A stretch of DNA of 64,000 nucleotides from Membranipora membranacea (lineage: Eukaryota > Bryozoa > Gymnolaemata > Cheilostomatida > Membraniporidae), in contig OU612066.1 of assembly GCA_914767715.1 (NCBI GenBank), positions 315,001-379,000 on the forward strand, given 5' to 3'. Position numbers and translations under genes: made by a program. Shown here piece after piece: positions 3,287-63,718 of this stretch. Under the pieces are notes generated by a model that was given only the letters and a program-made list of their open reading frames with translations, was not told the DNA's origin and did no database searches. Every line of letters starts with the position of its first letter. Positions within the stretch are counted from its first letter, which is position 1.

Positions 3287-6200
3287 TCATAGATCTTTGA
3301 ATTTACGAAGCACTGCCTCAGGTAATTTAAATGGTAGCTCATATTCATATGGGATAGCACCTGCCATGTTAGATTCAAAGTATGAGAAGAGAGGAAACCA
3401 GTACCTCACCTTCCTGCCGTCGTATCTGAGTCTGTGGTGATTATCTGCTAATGTGTGATAGTACAGAAATAGCCTGTTAACAAATACAGAAAAAGCCTGT
3501 AAACAAATACAGAAATAGCCTGAATACTAAATATAAATATAGTTTCCCTCACCACATATCACAATCATCAAAATAAAAATAAAATATATTTTCATGATCA
3601 CGAATTGCTGCTTCAAGCAGAGCAGAATGTACCTATCATTTTTACTGTCTACATATGGTTCTATATCTAACAGTTACATGCAGTACCAGCAGGGAGGGTG
3701 GGATATATACCTCTCCCACCCTACCTGCTGGTACCAGGAGTGAGGGTGGTAGCAGGTAGTCTATTAGGAGTTGTCTAGTTTATATGAGAGGAGACACAAC
3801 TATTGTAGAGGGGATTTCCCATTTATCAGAAGCCAGAGGCAGATTGTAGTTAGTCAATAAGAGCTTATAAATAATCAAGACCTGGACCCCCATAGACAGT
3901 ATATATATTGTAGCTAATGCTTCTCTTTTACATACCTGGTACTAAGATAGAAGGCTATAAACACATCTATGGAGTAATGCTCGTGTCCGGCCATCACAAA
4001 AAATATACCAAACATGTTTGCGACCCAGCCTAGAGTCTTTAACACCTGGAAGTTATTAGAGCTATCTACAACACAAAGATTAAGTTATATATATTAGAGC
4101 TATCTACAACACAAAGATTAAGTGATATATATTAGAGCTATCTACAACACAAAGATTAAGTGATATATATTTATATATATATATTTAAAATAATGGACAC
4201 AATCAACACAGTGACAATAAAAGTGATCTTTTGTTTCTTGAAGTAAACACACTCAAGGTCAAGGTCAAGGTCTAGCTAGATAGATAGATAGATAACCATT
4301 TTATTTTTACCGATCAAAATAGTACATTGTGACATGGCTATCATAATAAGAGCGAGTATTACATAAAAAGCATAAACTAAAGATCGATATGTATTTAAAA
4401 TGTCTTTGACAAAGGAAGGAAGTTGATAAGAGCCTAGACTCTGATATGTGAGAAACTCTAGTATGATGAGTTGTATATGATATTTAGAGAGTGACTCACA
4501 TTCATCGATGAACAGATTGAGTACAGTGATGATGACTGTATGGCCACTGAACATATAGTCTCCACATATTCTGTTACCATTAATAGTCATACCTCCTGAT
4601 ACGGCTATATAAGCAACTCTACATATTCTCTCTATGGCAGTTGTGTGCACCTACAATATGAGTAAGAGCTCAGTAAGTCATATCTACATTACTTACATCA
4701 TCACAATCATATCTACATTACTTACACTCTACTTACACTCTTCTAACACTAGACTTACACATACTCACTCTACAGAGGGTAGCCATGTTTGTTTATCAAA
4801 GTTAATTCTCATACAAGCGATACAGATATATTATATCAGCTGTGTGAGAGTATTAGAAGTTATAAAGTGAGCTCAACTACAAAACTACAACTTATCAGCA
4901 GTGATAGCCTGCCGTGACAAGCTGGTCAAGACAGGCTACAGCCGTGTGTGGGTGTGTCACAAATCCACATTTAAATATTACATTATAAAGACAGGTGATA
5001 GTAACTTTACCTGTTACAACACTAACACAAGAAATAAAGCAGATATCAGTGAGGTTAGTTTGAGGGCTCTTAGAAGTGATAGACTGAGTATTATACAACT
5101 ATAACTATAAAAAATGAGTTTGTGTTGTCACAGTAAGCATATACATAGAGCCCATGTGATAGTTTGAGGGCATTAAGCTAAGGAGTGAGCGCAGTGAAAG
5201 TACAGTATAGAATAAATGGCGAGGAAAAGAAAGGAAGAAATATGTGCTGGTTATAAAGAAGCTCTCCAAACCCAGAACTCTGCCTATCTTTAAGGATTCC
5301 GGACACCTTGGAGGTTCAGGACATTGCAGGGGTAAAAAAATATGAAGAGAATGATGAAAAATAGCATTTTTTTGGATGTATCACCAGTTTCTGATTTGGC
5401 TATAAACTGAAAACCTGCTGAATACAGCACATTTTGAATTTAAATTGGAAGTTGCCCTCTCAGTCAAGAGCCAGCTCAGTCACGATTTAAGTCTGAGGGC
5501 CAACTTGATAACCATGAATGAGCTTGCCAGCTAACATGATGCTCTCACTAATAATATCAATGTTTGTAAAACAAACATCAGGTTGTGGTTAGGTAACTAT
5601 TCCAATTAATCCTACATCGAAGGACCCTATTCAATAGTAGCACGATCATCATTGTATACATCTTAGGTACATAGCCAGTTGCAAACTGGTGTTATTGTTG
5701 GTTAGCTAGAATGGAGATGCCCCCCCCCCCGCGGAATAACTAGAGGCAAAACCAGTTGAAGGAAACAATAGTGGGATGATCCAAAAGTTTTGATGTTTAC
5801 AGCTTTGGTATCGGCCACTGTCATGAGCACTGCAAAATGATCTGACGGACATCGCTTTATATTCTCATTTGCCTAGTAATATTTGCCCTTTGAAAAATCA
5901 CCCTTTACAATAATTGCTGTTTGCTATGTACTGTGATGTTGTAACAATAAATGATGTTATACCATTCAATGAATCACACTTGTGATGGTGAGCCCATAAT
6001 AACAACACGTAAAATACATCCGCTATATACACACGTAAAATACATAGCCATAGTCATCTATGTGAATTATAAACATTTAGATGGAGGTGTGTATTTGAGA
6101 ATTTAGGAAATGAGGCAACTGCTCATAAGGGATTTACTAGATGAGTTGTCTTCTCTAAGATCTGTGAGGGGAGTCAATATGAGTATATGAGAGTATCTGA

Positions 6201-9200
6201 GAAAAATTTTGCTCCCTCAATAACTCATTCCTTGAAATGGGGCCACAGTCTAATTTAGACCTTGCTAGTGTTCTCTTAGTTAGACTTAAGAGCTTCAAAA
6301 CGATACCAAAACCTCCAAGGTGTCCTGAGTCCTTTAATATCCAGAGCGCAAGTAATTGACTAAAAAGGGTCATGATGGAAAGAAAACACTTCTACCCGAG
6401 GATAACATACCTTAACATATGGAGATGGTAAATCTGATAATAAATATTAATGTTTTATGACCAATCACTGTTTGTTTTATTATAGCTATAATAATAGCTA
6501 TAATAATGTATGACGATATACAAGGGAGGATTACTAACACGTAAAGTTGATCATAACATGAGTTAGGGACACAAATCCCTGATCAAGGCATCAATGTTGT
6601 CGGGAACTTAGTAGGTGAGGTTTGATCTAGTTTACCTGCATTGTGAGCCCCTGGGGCTCAATGGGGAAAAACTTTAAACACAAAATTTGATCATACTTGC
6701 TCTGGATCAGCCATGCTTAACCTTGGCCTGACCCTTACCACAGAAACAAATCGACACACATTTTCTCATCTTGTTCAAAAATAAGAAATATAAAGGAAAT
6801 TCCGCAGTATTCTGCCATAGCTGATATTCCAGCTAGCACACATAGAAAAGTCCAATTGTTGTCTATCGTAGTAAATTGGGTGTATTCATAGGTAGGTAAA
6901 AAGGTAAACTTAGGCAAAGAAAACCTAAACTTGCCATAATAGGATGAATATACATTGACATTACTTATGCTTAAAATTATCAGGTGCTAAGGGGGTCTGT
7001 TGGGTTATTGGTAGGGATTATGAAGAGATTATACTGATACTACCATTTTCTCATTGGCAAATTTCTACATGTTATAATGTTAACAACTCATCAACATCTG
7101 AAACATGTGAGCTATCCTTCAGCACTATGGCCCGGCTCAAAACAAAGCTCTACGTCAAAATAGGCAAGGCTTGAAAACACAGCCTCGTAACATCGCATGT
7201 CCTAGTTTGGTTGCTAAGGAGCCCGGGGTTTACAATGTCATGTCGTCTCATCCAAAAATGTTGACAAAAAATTGCTCGCACAAAAACTTATCTCAGTATT
7301 TTATTCATTGACTATCCACCAAAATCACATTTTTCTTGACTCCCATGTGATCTTTTCAATCAATATCAAAATTTGTTGTCAGCCATTTACCGTCCTCCGC
7401 AATAAGTTCACTGAATTTTTCAATTCAGAGTATCAAACACAGAAGGGAGCAGATATGATCCCTAACCTTTTCTAGTTACTCAAAGATTCCTGTGGCCGAT
7501 TGCTTTTTTGTTTTCTTCCCAAATAGGGCTGGAATGCCGAAAAAACTGCCTCTATTTTCAAAAAGTTTTCTGTACCTCAAGTAAAATTTGCCCTCAAAGT
7601 GGTATGCTCCCCAACAAAAAGTGGCCAAACCCGAAAAAATTTTAAGCATGCATGATCTAGATAGTTGGTGTTTCATATCTGCATTGCGTTGCGTTGGTTG
7701 GTCAGTATTGACATTAGTTACTCACCTGTTTTACACATTTGAAGTATTTACAGGGTACAGGTAGAACAGTAATAAACATACACACAGCTCTCAGCAAGTA
7801 TAGTGTGCCGATAAGAGATCCAAATCTTCTCAATATAACCAGTCTAAAAACAAAATACATAAGGTCAGCGTATGTATATATACCAGGTCAGCGTATGTAT
7901 ATATATACACAAGTTCAGCGTATGTATATATATACACAAGGTCAGCGTATATATATATACACAAGGTCAGTGTATGCATATACACAAGGTCAGCGTATGT
8001 ATATACACAAGGTCAGCATATATATACACAAGACGGTTTTCTGAGCTCTTATTTATGCCTCAATTCGGAGTTGTCCTCTCTCCAGTTTGGTACTTTTAAC
8101 CCACGCCGCATAGGAAAAACCTGCTGAAAGAGGGTTATATTGAAAACCGCTAAGATTAGGATAAAAATGATTTTTGATTCAGAGTCTGCACCATTGAAAA
8201 CCCCGGGAGACAGGGTTTCCAAATCATTGGAGGCTTGAATGTTGATAAATCTTAATTTTAGTGACGAAACGCATGAAACATTCCGCCAAATTGTCCGCAA
8301 AACAGGCGGGAAATGCTATAATTGATTATCAAAATACTAAAATTATTTCCCAAACTATGTCCATCTGAGTTTTCAATGTTGCAAATTCTGAATCAAAAAT
8401 AATTTTTATCCTATTATAAGCGGTTTACAAGATAACCCTCTTTTCAGCACGTTTTTCCTATGCGGCGTGGGTTAAAAGTACCAGACTGGAGAGAGGACAA
8501 CTCGAAATTGAGGGCTAAATCGGAGCTCAGAAAACTGTCTATACCTATCTCTGCATGCTGACTAAGTTACCTGAGCTGAGGGTAAGTTACCTGTGTTTGT
8601 GTACGAAGCAGATTGTGAGAAACACACACATAAGTACCATAGATATATACTCTGAGGCTACCATAGCCCAGTCTATATACGGAACGTTATCCAGGAACAT
8701 ATCGGGAAGAGGGGGATAAGTCTCCATATCAGGCACCTTATCATTAACAAAGGTCATGATAAGAGCACAGATTATAAGAGAGAACGAGGCGTAGAGTAAC
8801 GCTACTAATGTCTTCAGTACCTGTAATAAACGATAACAGGATAGTCAGTTATAGACAATTTTATCTACACATTACTCTGATACTGAAGCTTACAGCTAGG
8901 TTATCTAACCCTGAAGTGGGAATACTACAGTTTAATACATGCCTTTTTATGACCTGATTAATGTCAGCATGAGTTCTACACTAAGATAAGAGGGTGTATA
9001 CAGTTTGGAGTTGTCTTCTTAATGTACTTAATTTATCTAGGCTGGTTATATTTAGCTGATAGTTACCTTTGTGTAGCTAGATTCAATTAATAATTTTAAA
9101 AGATAATCCCCGGAACTTATGCAAAGTCATCATTGCAAAAACACAGTACATTAGTTTAAATGGACAGCGTGACATAACATATCATTAAAATAATGATAAT

Positions 9201-11177
9201 CACCGACAATGTGACTGTACAGTACCTCTTGTTTTACGTATTTAGCAAACTTTCTCTCTTTCTGATTATCTGGATGATAAGTGCTGACTGTCTCGTATGA
9301 ATCTGTGGTAGCTCTGCGTCTGCTGCTCAGTCTGCCTCCGCCCCCGCCTCCGCCGTGTAAGACGTGAGGAGAAGGGGGAGGGGGAGGAGAGAGGTGAGCT
9401 GGTCTCAGTCTATCTATCTCACCATATAAACGCTTTATAACTCCCATCTTTCTTATCTCAACAGGAGATTCCCTGAAATATAATCATCCATCTGTTTATC
9501 TAGAGGCCCTAATAATGTTAAAATTTGTTACCAGAGCATCATCGGCTGGGACAGAGAAGATTACCGTAGTACCACACTTAGGAATATACGAATTATGAAC
9601 TAATCAACTAGGAGTAGCAAAGTGATCTCGTTATGTAAAACGTACCTAAGATCTCGTTCTGTGAGACGTACCTAAGATCTCGTTCTGTGAGACGTACCTA
9701 AGATCTCGTTCTGTAAGACGTACCTAAGATCCCGTTCTGTAAGACGTACCTAAGATCTCGTTCTGTAAGACGTACCTAAGATCTCGTTCTGTAAGACGTA
9801 CCTAAGATCTCGTTCTGTAAGACCTACCTAAGATGTCGTTCTGTGAGACGTACCCAAGATCTCGTTCTGTAAGACGTACCTAAGATCCCGTTCTGTAAGA
9901 CGTACCTAAGATCTCGTTCTGTAAGACGTACCTAAGATCCCATTCTGTAAGACGTACCTAAGATCTCGTTCTGTGAGACGTACCTAAGATCTCGTTCTGT
10001 AAGACGTACCTAAGATCCCGTTCTGTAAGAGGTACCTAAGATCTCGTTCTGTAAGACGTACCTAAGATCTCGTTCTGTAAGACGTACCTAAGATCTCGTT
10101 CTGTAAGACCTACCTAAGATGTCGTTCTGTGAGACGTACCTAAGATCCCGTTCTGTAAGACGTACCTAAGATCTCGTTCTGTAAGACGTACCTAAGATCT
10201 CGTTCTGTAAGACGTACCTAAGATCTCGTTCTGTAAGACCTACCTAAGATGTCGTTCTGTGAGACGTACCCAAGATCTCGTTCTGTAAGACGTACCTAAG
10301 ATCCCGTTCTGTAAGACGTACCTAAGATCTCGTTCTGTAAGACGTACCTAAGATCCCATTCTGTAAGACGTACCTAAGATCTCGTTCTGTGAGACGTACC
10401 TAAGATCTCGTTCTGCAAGACGTACCTAAGATCCCGTTCTGTAAGACGTACCTAAGATCTCGTTCTGTAAGACGTACCTTAGATCTCGTTCTGTAAGACG
10501 TACCTAAGATCTCGTTCTGTAAGACGTACCTAAGATCTCGTTCTGTAAGACGTACCTAAGATCTCGTTCTGTAAGACGTACCTAAGGTCTCGTTCTGTAA
10601 GACCTACCTAAGATGTCGTTCTGTGAGACGTACCTAAGATCCTGTTCTGTAAGACGTACCTAAGATCTCGTTCTGTAAGACCTACCTAAGATGTCGTTCT
10701 GTGAGACGTACCCAAGATCTCGTTCTGTAAGACGTACCTAAGATCCCGTTCTGTAAGACGTACCTAAGATCTCGTTCTGTAAGACGTACCTAAGATCCCA
10801 TTCTGTAAGACGTACCTAAGATCTCGTTCTGTAAGACGTACCTAAGATCTCGTTCTGTAAGACGTAAGAATGTATAACCATCCACTTCATTCTCCCTGAG
10901 CCTCTCTATACTATCAGAGTCATAGTTAGCCTGTGAGAGCCACAGAGCTATCTCATCTACAGTCCACTCATCATTAGGTGTACTGAGGTCAGATGAGTGG
11001 CCATCTGAAGTCTGTAATTATTACATTAATATCGGTCATTATTCCATATTAGCATTTAAACAGAACATTGAAGACAAGAAAGATGAATAAGTACAAAAGG
11101 GACCAATAACAGAAATTTTGTTGCCTATGACTGCTTTGTACTTTACAAAGGGATTAAAGTTTAATATTTACCTCCAT
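3287..11177 (-). CDS. SAMD8: Sphingomyelin synthase-related protein (SAMD8/SMSr), complete
   Basis: Eight coding exons, read on the minus strand: 11177-11172, 11011-10842, 9472-9226, 8820-8591, 7843-7726, 4650-4500, 4065-3936, 3473-3287. All phases agree and give 412 aa, close to the vertebrate protein (about 415). Residues 18-80 form a SAM domain split by intron 2. Hydrophobic helices follow from exon 4 on. The [10 protein letters not shown] loop, the D3 motif [10 protein letters not shown] (His294) and the D4 motif HEHYSID (His335, His337, Asp341) are the hallmark and catalytic residues of the family. HEHYSID rather than HDHYTVD, plus the SAM domain, marks SMSr. In animals SMSr is an ER enzyme making ceramide phosphoethanolamine and sensing ceramide. 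The start, ATG GAG in a tiny exon, is the only in-phase choice I found. Three of its exon edges carry tandem repeats copying the splice site, and a fourth (exon 4) has a short duplicated donor. Confidence 0.93.
3462..3522 (-). repeat. 23-bp tandem repeat over SAMD8 exon 8 acceptor
   Basis: About 2.7 copies of a 23-bp unit, starting at 3462, 3485 and 3508. On the gene strand each copy reads as an acceptor followed by the exon start: AACAG or TACAG or TTCAG, then GCT(A/T)TTTCTGTA. The copy at 3473/3474 is the real acceptor, because it continues the frame as LFLYYHTLA, matching the family. Confidence 0.9.
3683..3735. repeat. CAGGGAGGGTGGGA hairpin (MITE-like)
   Basis: An inverted repeat of about 20-bp arms: CAGCAGGGAGGGTGGGA on the left and TCCCACCCTACCTGCTG on the right, around a short AT loop. 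It lies in the last intron of SAMD8. The same core occurs in hairpins near 23545-23615, and a related CAGGGA hairpin at 48396-48423, suggesting a small dispersed family. Confidence 0.6.
4055..4168 (-). repeat. 38-bp tandem repeat over SAMD8 exon 7 acceptor
   Basis: Three copies of a 38-bp unit start at 4055, 4093 and 4131. Each copy carries, on the gene strand, a T-rich run ending TTGTGTTGTAG followed by ATAGCTCTAAT. The copy nearest the exon (exon start 4065) gives exactly the seven residues (Tyr308-Gln314) that the family has between the end of exon 6 and the VLKTLGW segment. A later AG at 4046/4045 would be off-phase with exon 6. Confidence 0.9.
6965..7665 (-). mobile_element. Diverged hAT-type non-autonomous copy
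   Basis: This intronic stretch of SAMD8 aligns by eye, in opposite orientation, with the hAT element at 25163-25978. Shared blocks include GAAACATGTGAGCTATCC, GTAGGGATTATGAAG, CATGT(C/A)CTAG(T/A)TTGGTTGC and GGCTGGAATGCC. Termini and target duplication are not clear, so the ends given are approximate. No transposase frame is visible. Confidence 0.7.
7862..8030. repeat. GGTCAGCGTATGTATATA tandem repeat
   Basis: About seven copies of a 21 to 26-bp unit (AAGGTCAGCGTATGTATATA with a variable TA run and CACAAG). It lies in intron 4 of SAMD8, between exon 5 and a foldback element. Confidence 0.85.
8031..8540. mobile_element. Foldback element, about 510 bp, 170-bp inverted arms
   Basis: The left arm (8031 to about 8201) and right arm (about 8360-8540) are inverted copies, roughly 85-90% alike by eye. 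They share AGAC(G/A)GTTTTCTGAGCTC at the outer end, then GAGTTGTCCTCTCTCCAGT, ACTTTTAACCCACGCCGCAT and TTTTTGATTCAGA. The 160-bp centre is unique. There is no coding capacity, so this is a non-autonomous foldback or MITE in intron 4 of SAMD8. I could not settle the target duplication. Confidence 0.75.
9622..10869 (-). repeat. 26-bp minisatellite, about 47 copies, made of the SAM-exon splice donor
   Basis: The unit on the gene strand is TACGTCTTACAGAACGAG followed by ATCTTAGG. It equals the last 21 bases of SAMD8 exon 2 (coding the end of LRLTERDLR), its donor G|GTACGT included, repeated head to tail for 1.2 kb. Variants (GTGAG for GTAAG, TCCC for TCTC, GACCTAC for GACGTAC on the plus strand) recur in blocks, so multi-unit segments were themselves duplicated. 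It fills most of the 1369-bp intron 2. Only the donor nearest the exon (10842/10841) keeps the SAM domain in frame with exon 3. Confidence 0.95.
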
Positions 11178-15601: not shown

Positions 15602-18600
15602 ATGGTAAGTATGTGACTCAACTTGTGTCACTTTAGTGATGTGTACTACTGTCAGATGCACTGGTACTGGTAGTGTATGTCACCGGGCACGACGAGATAC
15701 ATTTAACCAAGGAGTTAATCTTTTATAACAGATAGTGTATCACGTCGAAGTCTTCAGATGTGATACACTACTATAATTATTGTCTGAGTATTGAAGTTGC
15801 TCGGATGATCAACGCGGCAAGGTACAAGGATGTAATATCAAACAACTGAATTGAACATTTATTTTGTTGTTGTTTTGTTTGTTCTTGTTGTGGGACCAGC
15901 TTCATTCAATAATTTCTTCAATCAATTCAAGGAGTTAACTCAATTCATCTCTGAGTTTTGTTGTTCATTATTATTATTATTATCATGGTAATTACTCCAT
16001 TTATTTTATATTTTAAACTTTGCACTTGTATACCCCAAGCGTTATCACTACCATAATTGACCGCCATCATCATCATTGAATCATTCTAATCAGACAATCA
16101 TCAATTCAATGACTTGAGTTGATGCATTGCATTGATTTCAACTTTTGTAAAATAATGTATGTCATTGAATCACTCATTGTCGCGGTTTAATTCATCATTA
16201 ATGACTAGTCGGTCTTGACAAATCTTGTCAAGACACGCTGGTTCCGTCTGACATGTCTTTTTTGGGGGCCCTTATTATTATTTTATTATGATTTATTGTT
16301 ATATCAATGATTGCTTTGACCTGTCAATACACCATAAACTAAAAGATAGGAATAAAGTTGTATTGAAAATACTCATGACGACAAAATTAGTTTCTACAAT
16401 AATAGAAACTGAAATAGTAAATATTGTTGGAATTTATTGTATTTTAGGCTCCTCCATGCTATGCTGATCTGGGAAAGGCTGCAAGAGATGTTCTCGGAAA
16501 GGGATATCGTAAGTGCAATCAACTTTCATTGGTATGTGTTGGTCTAGAAAAAGATATTATGTAATATAACTTCTACAACACCTATGTAGATAGCGCTGTA
16601 GTAAGTCACGCCATGGAAAGCTCTGTAAGTCACCACTTTAGTCTATGGTGGAGTCTCTGCTGTAGGAGTATTTATACAAATTTGTCTTTTATTTCTTAAG
16701 ATCTTAACACATGGAAATTAGAGGCTAAAACTACAACCAGCGCTGGACTTAAATTCAAGACAACCGGAGTACATAATACAGATAATGGAAAGGTGTTAGG
16801 AGTGCTGGAATCAGAATATGCCTGTAAAGATTATGGTGAGTTTGTGTCGATTGTCTCATATTTAGAGTTACTGTAGTGAGTTTGTGTCGATTGTCTCATA
16901 TTTAGAGTTACTGTAGTGAGTTTGTGTCGATTGTCTCATATTTAGAGTTACTGTAGTGAGTTTGTGTCGATTGTCTCATATTTAGAGTTACTGTAGTGAG
17001 TTTGTGTCGATTGTCTCATATTTAGAGTTAATGTCGTGAGTTTGTGTCGATTGTCTCATATTTAGAGTTAATGTAGTGAGTTTGTGTCGATTGTCTCATA
17101 TTTAGAGTTACTGTAGTGAGTTTTTGATGAGATCTTGTGAGAGGAGTAGAATTATTTACTTATACACAATTCTGAGGTTTGCGATAAGACGCGATAAACT
17201 ATACCTCGAGGCAGTTACTAAATTTTAGTATGTCTCATTGTAGGATTAAAGATGGTAGAGAAATGGTCTACAGACAATGTGCTCTCAATGGAGACTTCAG
17301 TAGAGAACCAGGGATTAGAAGGACTCAAACTTACTCTTGATGGCTCATTCAATCCTTCATCTGGGTCAGTAAATCATGTCACTGTAGGTCAACAGTACAT
17401 CCACAAGTCCACTTACCTATATCACCCCCAAATAACAGCCAACCACTTTATTGGCGCCATAACAAACAAAATATAGACTAAAAACTGTATTGAGTACGTA
17501 TCCACCTCCTTTGTTCTTTGTTACAGGGATCTTTTGTTGATAATTCACTTTTAAGTCGTCCTGACCCCCTTATCATAAGAATGTGTCAAATTATTCTGTT
17601 TGTTATAAAGTTATATTATTTGTTTGTTATAAAGTTATATTATTTGTATCACTGATTCCTGACATATTTTTGAGTCGGTAAATAGTAAACTTTTATTGGT
17701 GAATTCTGAAACAGATCAATATGCCGAGTTACTAACTCATTACAGTATAACAGCCTGCTCAGTACATACTACTGGTCTGCTCACTAATTAGAAAAATATT
17801 CTGTTTATACATTACTTACTTACTGGGTTCAGCTCAATGATGACCTGCTTATATTGAGTTTGTTAGGATCAGACCTGTCCCTGCTGTGATAGTTTATAGA
17901 AACTATATAAGGTTACTGTGAGCTTCTAATAAAAGCCTTATTACTGAGTGATGAAGTGATGCTTGTCTCTCCCTCCCTCCCTCCCTCCCTCCCTTCCTGA
18001 TGTACCACAGTATGCGTGTAATAATAATATCCACTATTAGGTTAAGTATAACATGTAACTAATACGGATCTATTATACGCTTATAGTAATAAGAGAGGAC
18101 AGCTGAAGACCAGCTATAAGAACGATTATCTCAACACAAACCTCGATGTCGACTCATCAGGTGGACCTACTATTAGAGGTGCTGTGGTCGGCGGGTGAGT
18201 TCATCTATTATACTCTACATACCGACCTCATGTATAACTACCTTATAACTTACTCATAACTACCTTATAACTTACTCCTAACTACCTTATAACAAAGAGT
18301 TATTCACATCATCAGTTCTAAAAATGTGTCCTATTGAGAAATTTCCTGTTTCCTGTTTGTGATGTTTATTTTTTCCTGTCAACAAATAAAGAGTAATATT
18401 GTAACCAATTGTGAAATACAGGATCTCCTGTTACATTATTTGCTCTCACTCATGTACATGAGGAGTGTTCCATTGTGTTGGGTTTTGATGTGGACATACT
18501 ATTGCTCAGCTCAAACAATAGTTTCACATAAAGGTCTTGTTAGTGATATAATTCAGGCATATTATGTTTGTTACATTATGTAATATATATATTTATATAT

Positions 18601-19492
18601 ATATTTATATATATATTTATATTTACATATATTGATGTGTATGTATGTGTCTGTAGATACAAGGGATGGATGGCCGGTTATCAGATGGCATTCGATGTAG
18701 CTAAATCACAGCTCACCAGTAACAACTTTGCTGTTGGTTTGAATGGCAGTGACTTTGCTCTCCATGCAGCTGTGTAAGTATAATATAAACAGACAATCTA
18801 CACAACACTGCATCCACAATCTATCTACTTCTCCACAAATCGAATTTATACTACACGTATCAAGGCAGTAACTCTTCTGGGTAATAAACTAAAATATTAA
18901 TAGGGGCTGTTTTCCAAAAATTCCTTACCCAATATGTATATCCAAAAAAATACACAGAATTATTACTGTTTGTAGAAATGATGGACAGGATTTTAGTGGA
19001 ACCGTGCACCACAAAGTTAGCCGAGATCTGGAGTCTGGAGTAACTCTCGGCTGGTCTGCCGGATCTAACGCCACCACATTCAACTTTGGCAGTAAATACA
19101 GTGTATCTGATGATACAAGTGTGAGGATGAAGGTCTCTAACCAAAGCCTGATTGGTCTCTCTCTTCAGCAGAAACTCAAGGATGGTGAGTGATGCATTCT
19201 GGAGTTAATCAGCTCCTTTTACTGTCAAATATTTATATTACTTTGATTGTATCGGCTATGGAGATGTTTACCAGAGAAATACTCACTCATATCATTGATG
19301 GTTGTCTAATATGCAGCGTGCCTACATACGCCTACATACTGCGCACACCATGTTATATATAGAGGCGTCTCAGTATTTAGATATGACTATTATATTACAG
19401 GTTTGACTCTGACCATGTCTGCTCTTGTTGATGCTAAGAATTTCAGTGCAGGAGGACACAGAGTAGGACTCGGTATCGAGTTAGAGCAGTGA
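15602..19492 (+). CDS. VDAC: Voltage-dependent anion channel (mitochondrial porin), complete
   Basis: Eight coding exons in phase: 15602-15604, 16448-16508, 16701-16835, 17244-17364, 18087-18194, 18657-18773, 18976-19184, 19401-19492 (TGA). They give 281 aa, the usual VDAC length. The first coding exon is the ATG alone, followed directly by GTAAGT. The N-terminal helix MAPPCYADLGKAARDVLGKG is typical. Later strands carry VEKWSTDN, the GLKLTLDGSF motif, GYKGWMAGYQMAFD, QSLIGLSLQQKLKDGL and the closing AGGHRVGLGIELEQ. VDAC forms a 19-strand beta barrel in the mitochondrial outer membrane and passes ATP, ADP and other metabolites. The exon 4 donor is GTCAGT, a weaker site, but it is required by the phase and by the PSSG/NKRGQLKTSY junction. 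AATAAA at 19993-19998 is a likely polyadenylation signal. Confidence 0.95.
16836..17123 (+). repeat. 40-bp tandem repeat starting at the VDAC exon 3 donor
   Basis: Seven full copies of a 40-bp unit plus the first bases of an eighth begin exactly at the exon 3 boundary (16835/16836). Each copy opens with the donor GTGAGTTTGTGTCG and contains an acceptor-like CATATTTAG at its three-quarter point. There are eight identical GTGAGT sites, 40 bp apart. Keeping one unit in the mRNA places a TAG stop in frame, so only the first donor yields VDAC. Confidence 0.95.
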
Positions 19493-23600: not shown

Positions 23601-26600
23601 CCCACCCTCCCTGGTCAAAGTAAGCTCAGAGTAAGCTCAGGGTCAGCTCAGGTTTAGCTTGTACCTGCTGAGTTTGAGGTATTCTGATATCAGAAGAGAT
23701 GAGAACATGAGCATCCTTCTCCACATCTCTCCAGCACAGGGGTGGATACAGGGGCTCATGTTTTACTGCTGAGTTACGTGTCATCTCTATAACATCCTCA
23801 CACCTGTAACAATAACCGTCAAATATATACAACCATGACACTAACCTCCTCACACCTGTAACAATAACCGTCGAACGTACACAACCATGATACTATATAT
23901 ATATATGTATATATATTATATATATATATATATATATAAAACAATGGTACTAACCGCCACACTTTTTTCTATTAGTCTTTTTTCTCAACATCCAAAATAA
24001 CAAAACAGTGATTAAACTTACTTAGAAAATATTAAAGGACTCCTATTTTGTACATGAATGTAAGGAAGCACAATGGATAATTATAATTTTCCAAGTCTTG
24101 AAACATAAGCAGAAGAACATGATTCTATTAAAATTTAATCACAGAGCCAGTCAAACTTGTGTCATCTTCGAATGAGAAACAGCACACAGAGTGAAAGTCT
24201 GAAGTATTCAACAAAAGTAAGCTGATACAACAAGCCATGTCATCCGGCTACTTTTCTTGTTTTGAGAGTAAAACAAACAAAAGTAGCCGCATGACAAGAC
24301 TACGAGCGAGACAAGAGTTCTAATACTAGATGAAATATCAGGATATCAGGCAGCCTTATTGTGATGAGATATCAGGCAGCCTTATTGTGATGCTCAGCTG
24401 TCTGATGTTCATTAAAATTTAAAGTTAGCCAAAGAAAGAGTCACAAGGCCATCTCAGGGGTAAGATAGAGAGGAAGGGGTGGCCAGATGAGGGGTTCCAA
24501 GGGGGGAAACTCTACTTACTTATTATAGAATGCAGTATCTAGATCATCATCTTCAGGGCTCCTCTCAGATAAAAGAAGTTTTCCGTTTTTACCTATCCTC
24601 ACATAACCTCCTAATACAAGCTTAGCAGCTACTTCTTTACCCACATTAGCTTCTATAGAGAACTCTGCTGCTGCTGCCGCTGGATTATCCTCCTCCGGTC
24701 TCTCTGAGTCTGAGAAAAGGAGAATATCACATTATATACAAATATACTAATGTGAGAGCAGACTGAACCTAATGTGTACATGTGTACCTAATGTGTACAT
24801 GTGTACCTAATGTGTACATGTGTACCTAATGTGTACATGTGTACCTAATGTGTACATGTGTACCTAATGTGTACATGTGTACCTAATGTGTACATGTGTA
24901 CCTAATGTGTACATGTGTACCTAATGTGTACATGTGTACCTAATGTGTACATGTGTACCTAATGTGTACATGTGTACCTAATGTGTACATGTGTACCTAA
25001 TGTGTACATGTGTACCTAATGTGTACATGTGTACCTCATGTGTACATGTGTACCTAATGTGTACATGCGTTTGAGATCATTTTTAAGACTTTGCAGAAAA
25101 TTCTAGTTAAACTAAAACTAAGAAATAAAAAAAGGATCATTATATGTACATTTAACATAAATCAGGGTTGTATGCATGGGTTTTGAAGTGGTAGGGCAAG
25201 AGGGTGCGAGAGGTGCGCTCTAGCGCCTCCCCGCCAGGGGGTATGGGGGCCTCCCCAGGGAAATTTCAAAAATCAGAGGCCGTTTTAAGGCATTCCAGCC
25301 ATTTTTGAGGAGAAAATTGACAGAGAAGTTTGCCGCGGGAATCTTAGTGTAACAGGGGCGGACATCATCTTATCCCTACAGTGATCGATACGTAGAATTG
25401 AAAAGAGTCGATGAACATGCATATTATAGAATGTGGAAACAGGACCAACAGTAAAAAATATGAAGAATGTTAACTGCTTACAGTTAAGAAGAGGAATAAC
25501 AGTCAATCAAATGTGTGATATTGTTAAATTTTTGTCGAAATTCTGATTTTATTGATTAACACAGAAAAGGCTTTTGGGATGAGACGCCATGAACTTGGAA
25601 ACATTGAATTGCAACCAATCTAGTACATGCAATGTTCAGAGGCTGTTTGTTCAAGCTTTTCCCAAGGTATGTTTTAGGGCAGGCCATGGCGCTGAAGGAT
25701 AGCTCACATGTTTCAGTTTGAGATTTATTGCTGAACTCTCAACCTCATAACAAGCTGAAATTTGCAAATTTTCCAGTATAAAACAGCTTCATCAGTGCTA
25801 ACACTTCATAATCCCTACATATATCACAAGGGCCCCCTGAGCACCTGTTATTGATAAACGTAAATGGAGTCAATGTGTTTTTATATCACTTATGACAATT
25901 TTGGTTTTTTTTTTCAAAATTGACCTGAAAATGTGGTAGGGCCATGGCCCCCTGGCCCTACCTATGAATACACCCCTGACATAAATTAACGTAATCATGT
26001 GACTAGCAGCTACCATCCAATTACCATACGACTCCCACACAACTTCCATACAACTCCCATATGACTACCACATGACTACCTTATGACTACCATATGACTA
26101 CCTTGTGTAAATGCCTGCAGGGCACCAGGAGATGCTCCCTCGAAGGTGAACCACTGTAGTAGATCCTTCTCCTTATCCTCAGGCTTCCCTCTCACATAAG
26201 TACCAGACTTTATATACTGTCTCTCCTTAGAGTCCCACTGCTCTTTGATAAGTGATGTATACAGCTGACAGATAAATATATATATACCATTAAAATCCTG
26301 TTCATCAATGTGTGGGGCTCTAAAACTTCTTACAAAGCAGGATCTATATCTAGTCTATTTCTTACGTTATATTAATTACTATTATATAATTATACACTAT
26401 ATAGTAATTAGAGGATATTGATTGACATCATCAATAAATCGAAACCATTTGAGATTTCAAACAAACATATGAAGCACCTTCACTTTCATGAAGCACCTGT
26501 TTATCTGAGACTGGCATTTGACAGCATGTCTCTGCCCGCACCATGATAACCATAATTATCTCCCCTCCTCTTTCTAGCACCCCTCTCATCTCCGATATTT

Positions 26601-45306: not shown

Positions 45307-48300
45307 ATGAGTATGTATGAGAGTACTCTCTCCCTGCTATGGGAGAGATATGATCGCAGCTGGATGAACACTTTCCGTATATCTCCGGTAAGACCTGATC
45401 TCAGATTTCTTCATCTTATGTGTCTCTTATAACAACAGCGACATCATATCTGTACTGTACAGCTTGTGTTCTGCTGTACAGCGTGTTTTCTGCTGCCTCA
45501 CTGCTCATTTCTTATGGCTGATTTGTCACATGGGCTTGTTTCGTGGTAGAAATCTAACAACGCAATTAAGATTATTGATTGATGGTTGTTGAGATGCTGT
45601 CTTCGTGATGTTTGCTGATTTCCCGGAGGCATACTATGATATTCTCTATCACGGCTGTCGGCTGCTCGTCTTAATTCTGAGTTCATACTCTTACGGTCTG
45701 GTTGTCTAAGCTGTAGGCTAACTTTTATCACATTCTAACATTTTTGGGTCACCGATGTGTCAGTTTTGGTCTATATCTAGGGATTGTGATTTTTGGAATG
45801 TTTATTATAGAATGATTTTGTCAGTAAATAGGCTTGTATTGATTATCCTTTCATTATCCTTTCATTTTTGCTGCCTTGATTTCTATGGATCCAATTATCT
45901 CATCAATAATGTGTTTTTCATTTGTAATTATATCACTTTGGCAGTGAGACACAGGCAGTGTTTCACACCACTGCTGCTCCTGCCGCTGCTGCTGCCGATA
46001 CTTTGTCACACTTTAGTATTGATTACGTTGCGTCTGCTCACACCTAGTTTTATCGTATCTCGTTACAGAAGGAGTTACGTATGATGAGTTTCTCAGACAG
46101 ACCTATAGCTCGACTATGTAAGTTATGTGGACAGTTTCATAGTCCTACAGACAGTCACCTATACGACTATCATCAGCCTATTGACGATGATCTGACCTGT
46201 GAGATCTGCCTACAGCCGCTCGTCGATCCTGTAGATACCAAATGCGGACATACTTTCTGTGCCAGATGTATTAAAAACTTTTTAAAATTACAAAATGTCT
46301 GCCCTAATGACAGGAACCAGTTAGCTGCCAGCGATCTACAGGCTGCACCTATTATAATAAGAAGGTAAGAATATCTCTGTCTGTCTGTGTGTCTGTCCCT
46401 CTGTCTGTGGGTCTCTATAGTATCTCATTAGACCAGGTGATCTGTCATCAGGTCATCTCTATATCTCATTATCTGAGCATAACAGGCAAAAATAATTAGT
46501 ATTCATTAAGGCTGAATTATTTATCTGACTAGTATCTCTTCTATCTCCTCCCCACTTGTAAAACACCCATTTATTGGAGAGGTTGAGATATGATCACAAA
46601 ATGGCAAAATTAAACTTTTTGCTAATCTGGAAAAGTTTCATAAGGCTGATAATATCACAGAGTTGATTGAAATTTGCCTCAATACAACATGATTAGTTCT
46701 TTATTGATTTTTGATGCCAAAAACCTTCAACACTCTTTTCAAATTTCTCTGCTAAACTAAGAATAATATGCTTGTGTAGATCATTTCACTCTCGTGTACA
46801 GTCAATGATCACATTGACCGAGCGGCTCCATAACTGGGCGGCTCGATAACCTGTTATTCTATGGCTGCTCTACTTGTGAGAGTATTTATGACATTTTGAC
46901 CAGAAGTAAATCACTAAGTAACTAAAGAACATTATTATATACCTAAATTCTGAGATTACAGTTAAATACATAAATTCTCCCGGCTGTTCCTCCCTAATAT
47001 TATGATAATGTCCTTCTCGCCATCAAACCTTCTCTTATCCGACCTCTATACTCGACCTCTATACTCGACCTCTATACTCGACCTCTATACTCGACCTCTA
47101 TACTCGACCTCTATACTCGACCTCTATACTCGACCTCTATACTCGACCTCTATACTCGACCTCTATACTCGACCTCTATACTCGACCTCTATACTCGACC
47201 TCTATACTCGACCTCTATACTCGACCTCTATACTCGACCTCTATACTCGACCTCTATACTCGACCTCTATACTCGACCTCTATACTCGACCTCTATACTC
47301 GACCTCTATACTCGACCTCTATACTCGACCTCTATACTCGACCTCTATACTCGACCTCTATACTCGACCTCTATACTCGACCTCTATACTCGACCTCTAT
47401 ACTCGACCTCTATACTCGACCTCTATACTCGACCTCTATACTCGACCTCTATACTCGACCTCTATACTCGACCTCTATACTCGACCTCTATACTCGACCT
47501 CTATACTCGACCTCTATACTCGACCTCTATACTCGACCTCTATACTCGACCTCTATACTCGACCTCTATACTCGACCTCTATACTCGGGTTAATCACGTT
47601 ATTTTGCGTGGATGTTGTGAGATTTTCACTTATGTATATTTTTGATGATTACAGATTATTAGATAAGCTGCAGGTGGTTTGTCCCAATGTAGATTACTGT
47701 GAGGAGGTGCTGCCAAGGTGTGAACTAGAGGCTCATCTTATATACAGGTAAGTCCACATCGGCAGCGGAACATCGGCAGCGTAACATCGGCAGCGTAACA
47801 TCGGCACCGTGGCACTGTGATATAGTGTATGTGTGTATCACTGAACTATAACACACAGCCTAGTCCACAACACGCGCAGTCACCTCATAATCATGTGGAC
47901 ATTAATTGTGCCGCCTTTCCTAAAAAACACAGTATCTGCACGAGTATTTGAATGTGTGTTTAGGAGCACGAGATAATTGGGAATGGACTGATACTGATCT
48001 GCCATTGATCATCATTAATAGCGGAGAGTGGCAATTTATTAGACCATCATCTGTCAGTAATGATAGAGTTAAGTCTCCAGCTAATTTACAGTGACCAGCC
48101 GATATACGGCCCTGGCCTTCTCTAGGGGCCAGGCATTAAAACGATATGAATGTCTGTTGGCTACAGTAGAAAGCGCTCCCATCTGAACAACATCTGGGAA
48201 AACTTAGACCTACCATGATGGTAGCGCTGATAGCATGGGAGATATGTCTCTGTGTCAGCTTTATCTAAATCTTCTTCTGAAGCTTATTTATCTGTATTAA

Positions 48301-54300: not shown

Positions 54301-57300
54301 AATGACAACATCAACCAGCGGACTGAAACGATACCTGACTACATTAATTTCTGCACAGACCTATGCATACCACCAAAGGAAGTTAAAAAATATGCCAACA
54401 AAAAGCCGTGGATTACAAAGCGCATTCTGGATATGATAGTTGAGAAACATGACGCCAACAAAAATGGAAATAAAAAACTCTACCATAAACTCAAAAAGCA
54501 AGTCTCAAAAGAAATAAAAAAGCCAGAGAAGAATATTCCCTAAAAATCCAACAACATTTAGCCAGTGATCCTGCAAACGCTTGGACCGACATTAAAAAAA
54601 TTAGCGGACTTCCAACCAACAACTCCAAGTCACAACCAGATATTAACTTCCAACCCGAAGAACTCAACAACTTCTTTGCCAGATTTGAGAAACAAGACAC
54701 TCAGCCACCACAACCTGCTTACAAAAACCTAACTGCTCCTCCCTGCATAATAGATGAAAAATCAGTTCTGATACAACTCAAACGCCTCAACTCTAGAAAG
54801 GGTGCTGGACCTGATGGTCTGATACCAAGAGCATTAAAACTCTGTGCTGACCAACTAGCGCCTGTAATTACGGATATATTCAACTTCTCTCTAGACTCTC
54901 AAACAACTCCTAATATATGGAAATCGGCCATCATCAAACCACTGCCAAAAACTGACAAGCCAAATCAACTTAAACACTTCCGACCAATAGCCCTGACAAG
55001 CTGCTTATGTAAAACAATGGAACGTCTGCTGAAAAGCTATATAGTTAAAAATACTCCTCTCGACAATCACCAATTTGCCTACCGAGCTAAAAGATCAACC
55101 CAGGATGCAGTATTATGCCTTATTACCACAATAACTAGTTACATAGACCTTCAAGCTGCCAACTATGCAAGATGCATATTTCTCGACTTCTCGTCTGCAT
55201 TTAACACCATCAGTGTCAGTAATCTCCTCACAGAACTGCAACATCTAGACTCCAGAGTTACAAACTGGGTGTCGAGTTTCCTGACAGGCAGAACACAAAG
55301 AACAGTAGTAAACAATATTCTCTCAACATCAATCACCACCAACACAGGAACACCCCAGGGTTCTGTCCTCAGTCCTCTATTATTCTCAGTGTATACAAAT
55401 AGGATTAGGTCAGAACAGAGCAATATAACTATTTTAAAATATGCTGATGACACTTGTATTGTTGGTTGCATCTCTGATAATAACTTGTCGAATTATTTTA
55501 ATGAGATTAATAGAATCTCTGGTCTATGCAAAGAACTAGACTTATTACTTAATCCTTCTAAAACCCAAGAGATGCTTTTCTCCACTAAGAGAGATAAACC
55601 TGACAGTCCTACTCTCGAATTAAATGGTGTAAAAATAGATTTTTGTGACAATGTTAAATATTTGGGAGTTCTCTTTGATAACAAATTACGTTTCGAAGAT
55701 CATGTCAATAATGTTGTGTCCAAAGCAAATCAGAGAATTTTTGTCATCAGAACCTTTAATTATCAGAGTACAAAGCCTTTAGCCTGCATGTTATTTAAAA
55801 GTTTTATTGTATCCATTCTAACCTACTGCCTACCTATTTTGTTCACTAGTATTTATTCACGAGACAAGAAAGCTCTGAGAAAGTTTTTTAAGCAAGGCGA
55901 CAGACTAGGTCTTGATATTGGGGACCTAGATTCAGTCATATCAAAACGTACAAAGAACCTGGCCCTGCAGATAATACATGATGACTAACATTTTTTAAAC
56001 AATTTTCTTGAGAAACTCCCCTCAGGCAGATATCGCAGCCTTAAATACAGAACTGCCTGGGGTAAAGACTCATTCCTCAGACACTTGATTTTGATATTGC
56101 AAGATATTTTTTAATCCACTAGAAGTCAGACTTTACTTTACTCATTTTGTTTATGTTTCTTTTTGGTATTCCCTACTCATGTAACAGTATAAACACTCAA
56201 TCTCGCAGCATACCTAATGTTTGTGACAAAATAAACCAACCAGCCAACCAACCTGCTAACAAAGTGTGAAGCAAAAAAACTAGGGCATGATATGCTGAGG
56301 GAGAGATAGATCGGAGAGACAAAGCGAATCTAGGGCATGATATGCTGAGGGAGAGATAGATCCGAGAGACAAAGCGAATCTAGGGCATGATATGCTGAGG
56401 GAGAGACAGATCCGAGAGACAAAGCGAATCTAGGGCATGATATGCTGAGGGAGAGACAGATCCGAGAGACAAAGCGAGAAGGATGGATCTAGCCTGTTAT
56501 AATTTGTCCTTCTATCTTTTCTCAATAATCTCAACTGCTCTACTTAAAAGATTTTAATAATTAACACTCTCTGGATGGTTACATATGGTGTTATATAGTG
56601 CTTTTAGACACTCTGGTGGTGTTATTGTTAGTGTTTAGTTGTTGTCTTGTTTGACAGTTTGATTCTCTTATGATTTGTAGAGAGGAGATATCTTGTTGTC
56701 AGTAAATGGTGCCAAAATCATGGGTCTCAGTCATAACGATGCTGTGAGAATTCTCAAAACTAAAGCCAGTCATAAAAAAGTAGAATTAAAGCTGCTCGAT
56801 ACATCAGAGACAGCGGAGGGGAGCGATAACTTCCTCCCGACGTGGATGTACTGGCTCGACCTACCCAGGTAATTATAAACTATCAACAGGTGGAGAGTCG
56901 GACAACGTCATGACTCAGTTTGAGAATAACTTAGTTTGATTAGACAGCAAAATAATGTGCGCAGACCAGAAAGTCATCATATATATGAACTCTATGGTGC
57001 AGTCTAAACAAATAACATTAAAAATGACTACTCCTTGACAATAAAGTAACTCATAGAGGTGGTTTATCTGTAAAATTGCACACTGGGCTAAGACTGTTAC
57101 CTCTGGTGTTTTAGTGGGCTGCTTGAATCAAAACAAAAACCATCGATTTAGGCCTTAATTTTGTGCTAAAAATAGAATTTTACTGCTGGATGTTTGGTGA
57201 AATGTTAAGACGAGATATTTGGTAAGTTGTTATGATGAGATGCTATGACAGTAACTGTTCTATGATTATGATGCATGTATGATTGTTGTTTAACTCCTTG

Positions 57301-59311: not shown

Positions 59312-60153
59312 CTACTCGTGGTATATACCGTAAACCATAACTGTACAATATACCATAGGGCTCTCCCAGCTGTAACTAACTACATTATCAGTATTAGTAT
59401 CCCAGGCACACTGACTGTTTACTGACATGCCCTGTATCTGCTTCTGTCCCAGTACTACTTGACATACGACCTTATATCTATCTAACTTTAGAGATTTCAC
59501 CGCATCCTTACATTCTGATGTTAGGATCTTAGTTAGAAGTGCAGCAGTGTTCGGATTGTATCTGAATGTGCGCATTCTCCCATCTACTATCTTTTTGATG
59601 AGCGGTTGTATCTCTAGACAGTTAAAAGGCTTATGAGGTGTGAGCTGATATGTAGGAGGTTTAGGTGCGTTATAAGCAAGTTGTCTTCCTTGACGGAATC
59701 TAGCGACATAGTTTTTAGCGAGTCTTCGACTTAGTAGTATACTGAATATTGAGGCGTTTGGTAATGATATCTTCTTAGCCTGTGATGTAAGCTGATCAGT
59801 TCCTCCGCCTTGTGCTGACTTCAGACTGCTCTTCTTTTTAGAGTCAGCAGGTAACCTAAAATACGAGCACAGAGCAATAATTAACAAGCTAGATTTTAGT
59901 TAATTGTCCAAAGCAGACTCCAGAATAAATTATCTAAATTAATTGAAATGATCTGAATAATTTACCTCATAAGAGATACCCTGCTCTGAGTGGAGTTGGC
60001 TGATTTCTCGCTCATCTTCTTACTGCTGACTCTGCTAGTTATCGGCAGCGTGTGAGATCTCACGGCAGCAGGTCTGCCTTCTGATGTCACACTGCGTACC
60101 GCCGCAGAGTTCAGGTTTATTTTAACCATTTTCTTCTCTAGATCTGTCGGCAT
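59312..60153 (-). CDS. Tctex1-domain protein A (dynein light chain Tctex-type family), complete
   Basis: Two exons, 60153-59966 and 59855-59312, join in phase (AG|G) and give 243 aa. The N-terminal 60 residues are basic and Ser/Lys-rich. The middle holds ASIFSILLSRRLAKNYVARF. The C-terminal 120 residues form a Tctex1 fold, with KPFNCLEIQPLIKKIVDGRM, then LDRYKVVCQVVLGQ, then CAWDTNTDNVVSYSWESP, ending in YCTVMVYGIYHE. This family (TCTEX1D/DYNLT) includes dynein light chains and axonemal adaptor proteins; an extended N-terminus is typical of the TCTEX1D members linked to cilia. It is a paralogue of the gene 2 kb upstream on the same strand. Confidence 0.85.
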
Positions 60154-62312: not shown

Positions 62313-63718
62313 TCAATCCGTGTATATTGCGTATAGAGTGGCAACACAATATATATTGTTATGCGTATATGTATACGTAATTTGTATATCGAGGCTTTCA
62401 TTCCACAGACATTTACTGGCCTGCTGCATACTATGCTGGTCAGACAACTCTCCGATCGACACCAGACTCACTATCTTATACCTGCAGCTGTCACTATCCA
62501 TATCTCTTACGTGTCTCTTTATCTCCTCAGCAAGTGCTTGTGATGTCACCTTACACAACATGGGACTGTAACGCTTAATGGCTGACATCTTGGCATCGAC
62601 AAGCTCTTTTATTGTAGAGGTAATCAAAGTAGAATTGAGATTTTGTAAAGGCTCCGTACGATAGGTCGGCTCTTTTACTTCAAGCTGCTTATTCTTTTTT
62701 TCGACAATCTGCAGAATAAATAATGTGTAGTGGTTCATTATGGGAGTCAAAATATCAGACAGAATAACAGAATGGGACAAAGTGTCCCAGTAGTGAAAAA
62801 GGGCAGTAGTTAGTCAGCGCCTTTATTATCACATCATACATACAGATATATATATATATATACAGTACACTCAGTCACATGTAAATATATTATATATATT
62901 ATATATAGTTATTATTTATTAAAATGATCTGTAAGCACCGCTGTTGCCATTAGTATAAAACACTAAAATTTTACTATTAAATATTATATATTATATATAT
63001 GGTGTAACGGGAGGAAAAGAAAATGTTACCAAATTGTTTAATTCATAAATGGTCTTAATCTCAGGCTGAAATCAATAGTAATGGCTAAGATAGCTCAAGA
63101 AGAAAATTACACAATTTGTCGCTCAAAACTGAATAACTGTCAATGGAAGTGAAAAGGCTAAATGAATAAATAAAATTTATTCAGGCTGTTCACTTTCATT
63201 GTCAGTTATTCAGATGTGACTTCTAATATAAGCTCAGGGTTTTTATAAACTACAGTAAGTGATGTATAAAGCCTGGATACAGCTACAGGATGAGAATGAC
63301 TAGCGTACATTATATAGCAACTAAAACATATTATGCTGTTGGCTTAGATAGGGCTTGTTTTGTTACTTGAAGTCACCTTTTTGTGAAGTTTTTGAGCGAA
63401 TCTTCTTGAAGCTAACAATCCCATGAAGCTGGCTGTTTTCTGAGCAGTGCTTGGTGGTGTTGAGAGTTTAGCGTGAGCTAATAGAGATCCCACAGCATCA
63501 GATCTCAGAGATGGCATGGCGGTGCTACGTGGAGATGATGGGAGAGGTGGTGACCTCTCCATACTCTGGGGAGTTGTCCTTCTTTTACTCTCTGTAAGAA
63601 TAAAACATACACACAATAAATTATTAAATATAATACTTGGCGTCTATTAATCAACCAAATGTGGTACAGAAGGGATTTGGGTTTGAGAAAAGAGTAACTT
63701 TACGTATTATCTCTTACC
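62313..63718 (-). CDS. Tctex1-domain protein B, 5' end unresolved
   Basis: Two certain exons: 63591-63377 (donor AAG|GTGACT) and 62708-62313 (TAG or TGA-terminated frame ending TLYAIYTD). They join in phase 0. The upstream exon needs a phase-1 partner; an exon ending at 63718 (donor ACG|GTAAGA, residues CVESSAN) fits but has no start codon in the visible frame, so the gene probably continues beyond the window. The C-terminal domain has LQNLNSTLITSTIKELVDAK, then CRYKIVSLVSIGELSDQ, CLWNESLDIQITYTY and IYCVATLYAIY, a Tctex1 fold. SFMGLLASRRFAQKLHKK parallels the same region of gene A, showing tandem duplication of the pair. It is probably a dynein or axoneme light-chain-type protein. Confidence 0.8.

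Follow-up and report, generated by a model that had tools for sequence, protein, structure and literature searches.

In the bryozoan Membranipora membranacea, a 26-bp tandem repeat crosses the exon 2/intron boundary of SAMD8 and carries 47 copies of the splice donor. We consider it probable that this is a mirage-type minisatellite: a duplication over the boundary has grown into an array of 47 units, which is tolerated passively, and the exon-adjacent donor makes the mRNA. Positions refer to the window, that is, the whole 64,000-nt stretch of DNA that was analysed. On the minus strand, 47 consecutive 26-bp units run from 10861 down to 9640 and are followed by a 16-nt partial unit; TRF places the array at 9624..10866 (47.8 copies, 93% matches, 0% indels, score 2185). 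The unit, CTTACAGAACGAGATCTTAG/GTACGT (the slash marks the splice site), is made up of 20 nt from the end of exon 2 and 6 nt from the start of the intron. Unit 1 (10861-10836) is the true exon 2 end with its donor, and the overlap of the array with exon 2 amounts to 20 nt within this unit, or 25 nt by TRF. An earlier note on this DNA had described about 47 tandem copies of a real donor, each made of the end of the SAM-domain exon plus TTAG/GTACGT, and both statements are confirmed. The array was also said to start at the exon edge and to fill the intron; it does begin at the end of exon 2, but occupies about 89% of the 1369-nt intron.

The splice signals are well preserved along the array. GT is kept in 47/47 units and AG/GT in 44/47; the donor 9-mers are TAG/GTACGT (37), TAG/GTAGGT (5), TGG/GTACGT (3), AAG/GTACGT (1) and TAG/GTACCT (1). 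The acceptor-like TTACAG that the earlier note placed before each donor is present in 37/47 units rather than in all, and its score is low (see below). Eleven unit types were distinguished, with 20/47 units identical to the consensus, and the five-unit block ‘bacde’ recurs three times in the unit order, starting at units 3, 20 and 36, which is the pattern expected of array expansion. A genome search, in which only the best candidates were scored, returned 22 unit matches, all 22 inside this array, and found no second genomic site of the unit.

Exons 2–8 of the host gene are intact, in line with the earlier note, to which the gene otherwise looked intact and conserved. Our model spans exons 2–8, all on the minus strand; exon 1 was not located. 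Exon 2 (10842..11011) encodes the first part of the SAM domain and is followed by donor 1, GTACGT, from 10841. Exon 3 (9226..9472) encodes the rest of the SAM domain and a linker, exon 4 lies at 8591..8820 with the donor CAG/GTAACTTA, exon 5 at 7726..7843 with a period-23 array (7855-8028) ending 11 nt upstream of its acceptor, and exon 6 at 4500..4650. Exon 7 (3936..4065) and exon 8 (3287..3473, with the stop codon) have their acceptors, TTGTAG/ATAGCTCTAAT and CAG/GCTATTTCTGTA, inside a 38-bp and a 23-bp array, respectively. A single extra copy of the exon 4 donor CAG/GTAACTTA lies 20 nt downstream of it (GT at 8570, minus strand) and is perhaps an array at its start. Joined via donor 1, exons 2–8 give one open frame of 410 aa with SAM and PAP2_C domains. 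Its best solved-structure match is human sphingomyelin synthase-related protein 1 (SMSr; 8ijr, E 3.4e–96), to which it aligns without a gap over the exon 2/3 junction, and its closest named relative among the best 120 of 928 protein matches is from the bryozoan Watersipora subatra (49%). Confusion with a paralogue was rejected: all 7 SAMD8 matches in the whole genome fall within the window, and the genome search found no second copy.

Retention of array units ruins this frame, as the earlier note had predicted. Measured from the beginning of exon 2, the frame ends after 71 aa with donor 2 and after 73 aa with donors 3, 4 or 5; among donors 1–5 the frame through exons 2–8 is kept only by donor 1. 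Because the stop sits in the first three units, donors 6–47 should keep the same stop. The claim that only the exon-nearest donor works thus holds as far as the frame is concerned; from frame and homology, we infer that authentic mRNA is made from donor 1. First-donor use would join TTAG of exon 2 directly to GGAATCTCC.

Database proteins speak to the other junctions of the gene. Among the matches listed, this species is represented by a single SAMD8 protein, P0001, which is identical to the predicted product at 343/345 residues and comes from a 1341-base contig. It covers exons 3–8 with exon-adjacent exon 7 and exon 8 junctions. Its first residue corresponds to Met 66 of the joined protein, 26 nt past the start of exon 3, and it lacks the first half of the SAM domain. 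Its start may reflect a truncated contig, a SAM-less isoform or a frame closed upstream. Since P0001 begins inside exon 3, it argues neither for nor against the use of donor 1. No exon 2-containing protein of this species was present among the best 120 of 928 matches, and a search with the N-terminal part returned one match, P0121, which represents exon 3 with intron read-through and has no exon 2.

What could single out donor 1? Its score (8.28) is ordinary compared with 20 annotated donors (range 1.5–13.1) and is shared by 42/47 array donors. In RNA folding of exon 2 with 12 units, donor 1 was not more open than the other donors (openness 0.25 versus 0.15–0.38). As neither sequence nor folding marks donor 1, its position must, through what we infer to be exon definition or commitment ahead of transcription of the remaining array. 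When donors are duplicated in minigenes, splicing usually favours the intron-proximal copy. The SAMD8 array resembles such constructs in that identical donors compete for one acceptor; the minigenes, however, carry engineered pairs whereas SAMD8 has 47 natural copies. A preference for the intron-proximal donor would predict the wrong product at SAMD8 exon 2, and hence the case is worth testing.

The array is not a unique oddity: junction arrays also occur elsewhere in SAMD8 and in two further genes, a VDAC gene inside the window and a kinesin gene. In SAMD8, a 38-bp array of 3 copies (4054..4171, minus strand) lies over the exon 7 acceptor and a 23-bp array of about 3 copies (3462..3542, minus strand) over the exon 8 acceptor. 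The last six exons of the VDAC gene were found on the plus strand at 16701-16835, 17244-17364, 18087-18194, 18657-18773, 18976-19184 and 19401-19492 (Porin_3, E 9e–65; closest named relative Watersipora subatra, 68%). A 40-bp array begins at the donor of the first of these (16836..17123) and presents GTGAGT 8 times at 40-bp spacing, namely the true donor and 7 further copies; the last exonic base is G at the true donor and A or C at its seven copies. The corresponding protein, P0122 (1409-base contig), can be aligned with 259 residues of the VDAC product at a rounded 100%, with one residue differing by eye. We took P0001 and P0122 as spliced products because their junctions are continuous, and on this basis they show that the exon-adjacent site is used at the SAMD8 exon 7 and exon 8 acceptors and at the VDAC donor. 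Use of the neighbouring copy would add 38, 23 and 40 nt, respectively, and break the frame at each.

The kinesin array lies on chromosome C7 (G000:C7:19566600-19569100; L054 249-2186) and shows that the arrangement is not confined to the window. Here, the end of a 204-nt exon together with its donor, CAG/GTATGT, lies in an array of 13 tandem units of about 144 bp. Twelve donors match AG/GTATG (11 CAG/GTATGT and 1 TAG/GTATGG), spaced 138–148 bp apart with one gap of 292. Compared with the first exonic tail, 9 of the 11 later ones are identical at 114–119 of 122 positions, one at 113 and one at 33, the last being apparently out of register through an indel. The frame stays open with either of the next two donors, so that one or two retained units would repeat a segment of the motor domain. 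We saw no tandem exon-end series in myosin genes among 82 matches. Overall, donor arrays are found at SAMD8 exon 2, VDAC and kinesin, and acceptor arrays at SAMD8 exons 7 and 8.

Similar structures are described in amphioxus, where ‘mirages’ are minisatellite-like tandem duplications of exon-intron boundaries that involve 5′ and 3′ splice sites and carry AG/GT signals in many units (PMC3087553, PMC3902484). The mirage genes of these reports include Adh3 and the globins BflGb6 and BflGb9, with TnC and PGBD5 also discussed; data on Adh3 and RT-PCR on the globins suggest regular splicing despite the mirages, and PGBD5 is thought to behave alike. The SAMD8 case agrees in that the array lies over a boundary, nearly every unit carries AG/GT, and both donors and acceptors are affected in the genome. 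It differs in having 47 units of 26 bp at one donor; for Adh3, unit lengths of 10–72 bp are given, and BflGb6 is reported with 6 and 3 units of 150–160 bp in two haplotypes. Length instability of mirages is reported in amphioxus, while the SAMD8 array is known from one assembled haplotype. Moreover, mirages are reported from cephalochordates, and the present host is a bryozoan; our literature search of titles and abstract openings, bryozoan terms included, found no description of junction-spanning arrays in bryozoans. We place the SAMD8 array in the known mirage class, as a case from another phylum and of large copy number. It also resembles intron gain by AGGT duplication (the Rogers model, ATP2A1, fission yeast) in that its tandem copies carry AGGT. 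In the fission yeast genes SPOG_01682 and SOCG_00815, 24-bp AGGT units are exonic and an intron extends across the duplicates (PMC4974935); such exonic units create a new intron, while the SAMD8 unit crosses an existing boundary.

If the SAMD8 array is a tolerated mirage, slippage or unequal exchange would have enlarged a tandem duplication across the boundary until it held 47 units. Exon 2 and the first donor would be recognised together, as one unit, while the array and exon 3 are still to be transcribed, and mRNAs made from later donors, with their early stop, would be destroyed. Re-splicing of mis-spliced RNA to the correct product is also conceivable in principle, because nearly every unit ends in AG/GT and such RNA would be bounded by GT...AG; however, the low scores of the acceptor-like sites (TTAG 2.25, TTACAG 3.02; 18/21 annotated acceptors, each left out of its own matrix, exceed 3.02) make it doubtful. 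The array would then persist because it leaves the mRNA unchanged and not for any task of its own. The earlier note argued that the donor choice must be made reliably; it need not be, for nonsense-mediated decay could clear the products of a leaky choice, or these could be spliced again.

The overlap of the array with a donor might be a coincidence of dense local arrays that have no tie to junctions. We regard this as a real possibility, though a less likely one; it is compatible with passive tolerance, and confidence in the two is not mutually exclusive. The window holds 52 arrays that cover 5738/64000 bases (9%). By circular shift, arrays were not enriched at window junctions (4/41 in or at arrays versus 3.57 expected, P-value 0.49), just as random placement predicts. 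Arrays avoid exons, however: the 18 arrays of three genes overlap 49 exonic bases, where length would predict 517. When random placements could include no more than 25 exonic bases, arrays near junctions exceed expectation: 6/18 lie within 12 nt (versus 1.42, P-value 0.002) and 7/18 within 25 nt (versus 1.91, P-value 0.003), while 4/18 contain or abut a junction (versus 1.00, P-value 0.019) and 3/18 contain one (versus 0.95, P-value 0.067). With the SAMD8 array removed, the counts are 5/17 within 12 nt (P-value 0.010), 6/17 within 25 nt (P-value 0.008) and 3/17 containing or abutting (P-value 0.065). These exon-avoiding tests are post hoc to the observation and use a small sample, and the enrichment at window junctions is weak. 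Units of the kinesin array, which lies outside the window, also end exactly at the exon end, which again speaks against coincidence.

As a control, we used 39 kinase loci (236,004 bases), where arrays of period at least 9 cover 0.8%; 0/74 junctions touch an array and 1 lies within 12 nt of one, in keeping with coincidence. The window is thus about tenfold richer in arrays than the kinase loci, and the arrangement is uncommon elsewhere. Arrays of period below 9 were excluded from all junction tests. Kinase junctions were predicted from a kinase profile and splice matrices of our own making rather than from transcripts, and 37/39 exon pairs gave a junction pair. The set began with 45 loci, taken for 15 of them out of 138 matches; those dropped were L011, L015 and L030 (small contigs C12/C13, stop-rich) and L036–L038 (inside longer loci). 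Several kinase and kinesin matches on contigs C12, C13 and C14 hold internal TAA and TAG but no TGA; they look like foreign DNA in the assembly with what is presumably a ciliate-type code.

Other features of the window are noted here. It lies near a scaffold end (chromosome 2, 315–379 kb); six copies of TTAGGG, searched for as a test of a chromosome-end origin of the array density, had no match in the assembly. A gene with RING, zf-TRAF and PDZ domains, which we take to be LNX-like, has putative junctions, and the window junction list omits its uncertain acceptor 49147 and one further exon at about 48.5 kb. Around its exon 47655-47747, a 13-bp array (42 copies, 100% matches, 47040-47587) ends 67 nt before the exon, and a 14-bp array (47756-47810) begins 8 nt past it. 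A 19-bp array at 24767-25067 (15.8 copies, 99% matches) reads TTAG/GTACACAT on the minus strand, again with AG/GT. The window also holds a LINE-type reverse transcriptase reading frame (54489-55988; RVT_1, E 9.1e–33) and two minus-strand reading frames with Tctex-1 domains (59315-59899 and 62316-62813).

A more active account would have 47 near-identical donors, in exonic surroundings that are nearly identical too, compete, the cell reliably taking the exon-proximal one against the preference seen in minigenes. Proximity would then count for less than exon definition or first-come commitment, and copy number would vary between colonies and tune SAMD8 mRNA through decay. Taken as a whole, we find this unlikely. 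Very unlikely, in our view, is the rival account of a length-variable poison device, in which some transcripts use later donors, gain an early stop and decay, and copy number sets SAMD8 output. The premature stops from the donors run, the ordinary score of most array donors and the coverage by proteins of this species, among the matches listed, of exons 3–8 and not exon 2 would all fit it. However, later-donor use is hypothetical, and the missing exon 2 proteins may reflect 5′ truncation of one contig. Arrays over junctions also occur in VDAC and kinesin and at acceptors, and their presence in unrelated genes and at both kinds of site points to a mutational process. Nothing here supports the length-variable control of SAMD8 mRNA that the earlier note proposed.

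Equally poor are the prospects of stepwise removal by recursive splicing, in which AG/GT would serve as acceptor and donor and any choice would lead to the same mRNA. Besides the recurrent AG/GT, a CTTAC branch-like motif can be read 16 nt before the AG, and an experiment cited in PMC4974935 obtained a working intron by duplicating an AGGT segment of ATP2A2. However, of all AG dinucleotides in the window, 13% score as high as TTAG and 10% as high as TTACAG, and we saw no pyrimidine tract in the array.

Tandem arrays are a known assembly hazard, and the true locus could have one or few units. Such an artefact is nevertheless very improbable, given an array of 1.24 kb with 11 variant unit types in an ordered block pattern and a 339.4-Mb assembly built with hifiasm from 66-fold HiFi reads (PMC10290214).

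Arrays over donors and acceptors of several genes in a bryozoan suggest that mirages are a recurrent mutational outcome and not a peculiarity of lancelets. With the real donor and its exonic context reiterated 47 times, the earlier description of SAMD8 as a natural test of donor competition is fair, and the array offers a clean natural series of competing donors. Poly(A) RNA-seq (ERR6464929) and HiFi reads (ERR6406215) of the species are public, which makes it directly measurable which donor is chosen, how often errors occur and how the choice depends on copy number. If later donors are used, SAMD8 would be a measurable case of mRNA control by repeat length.
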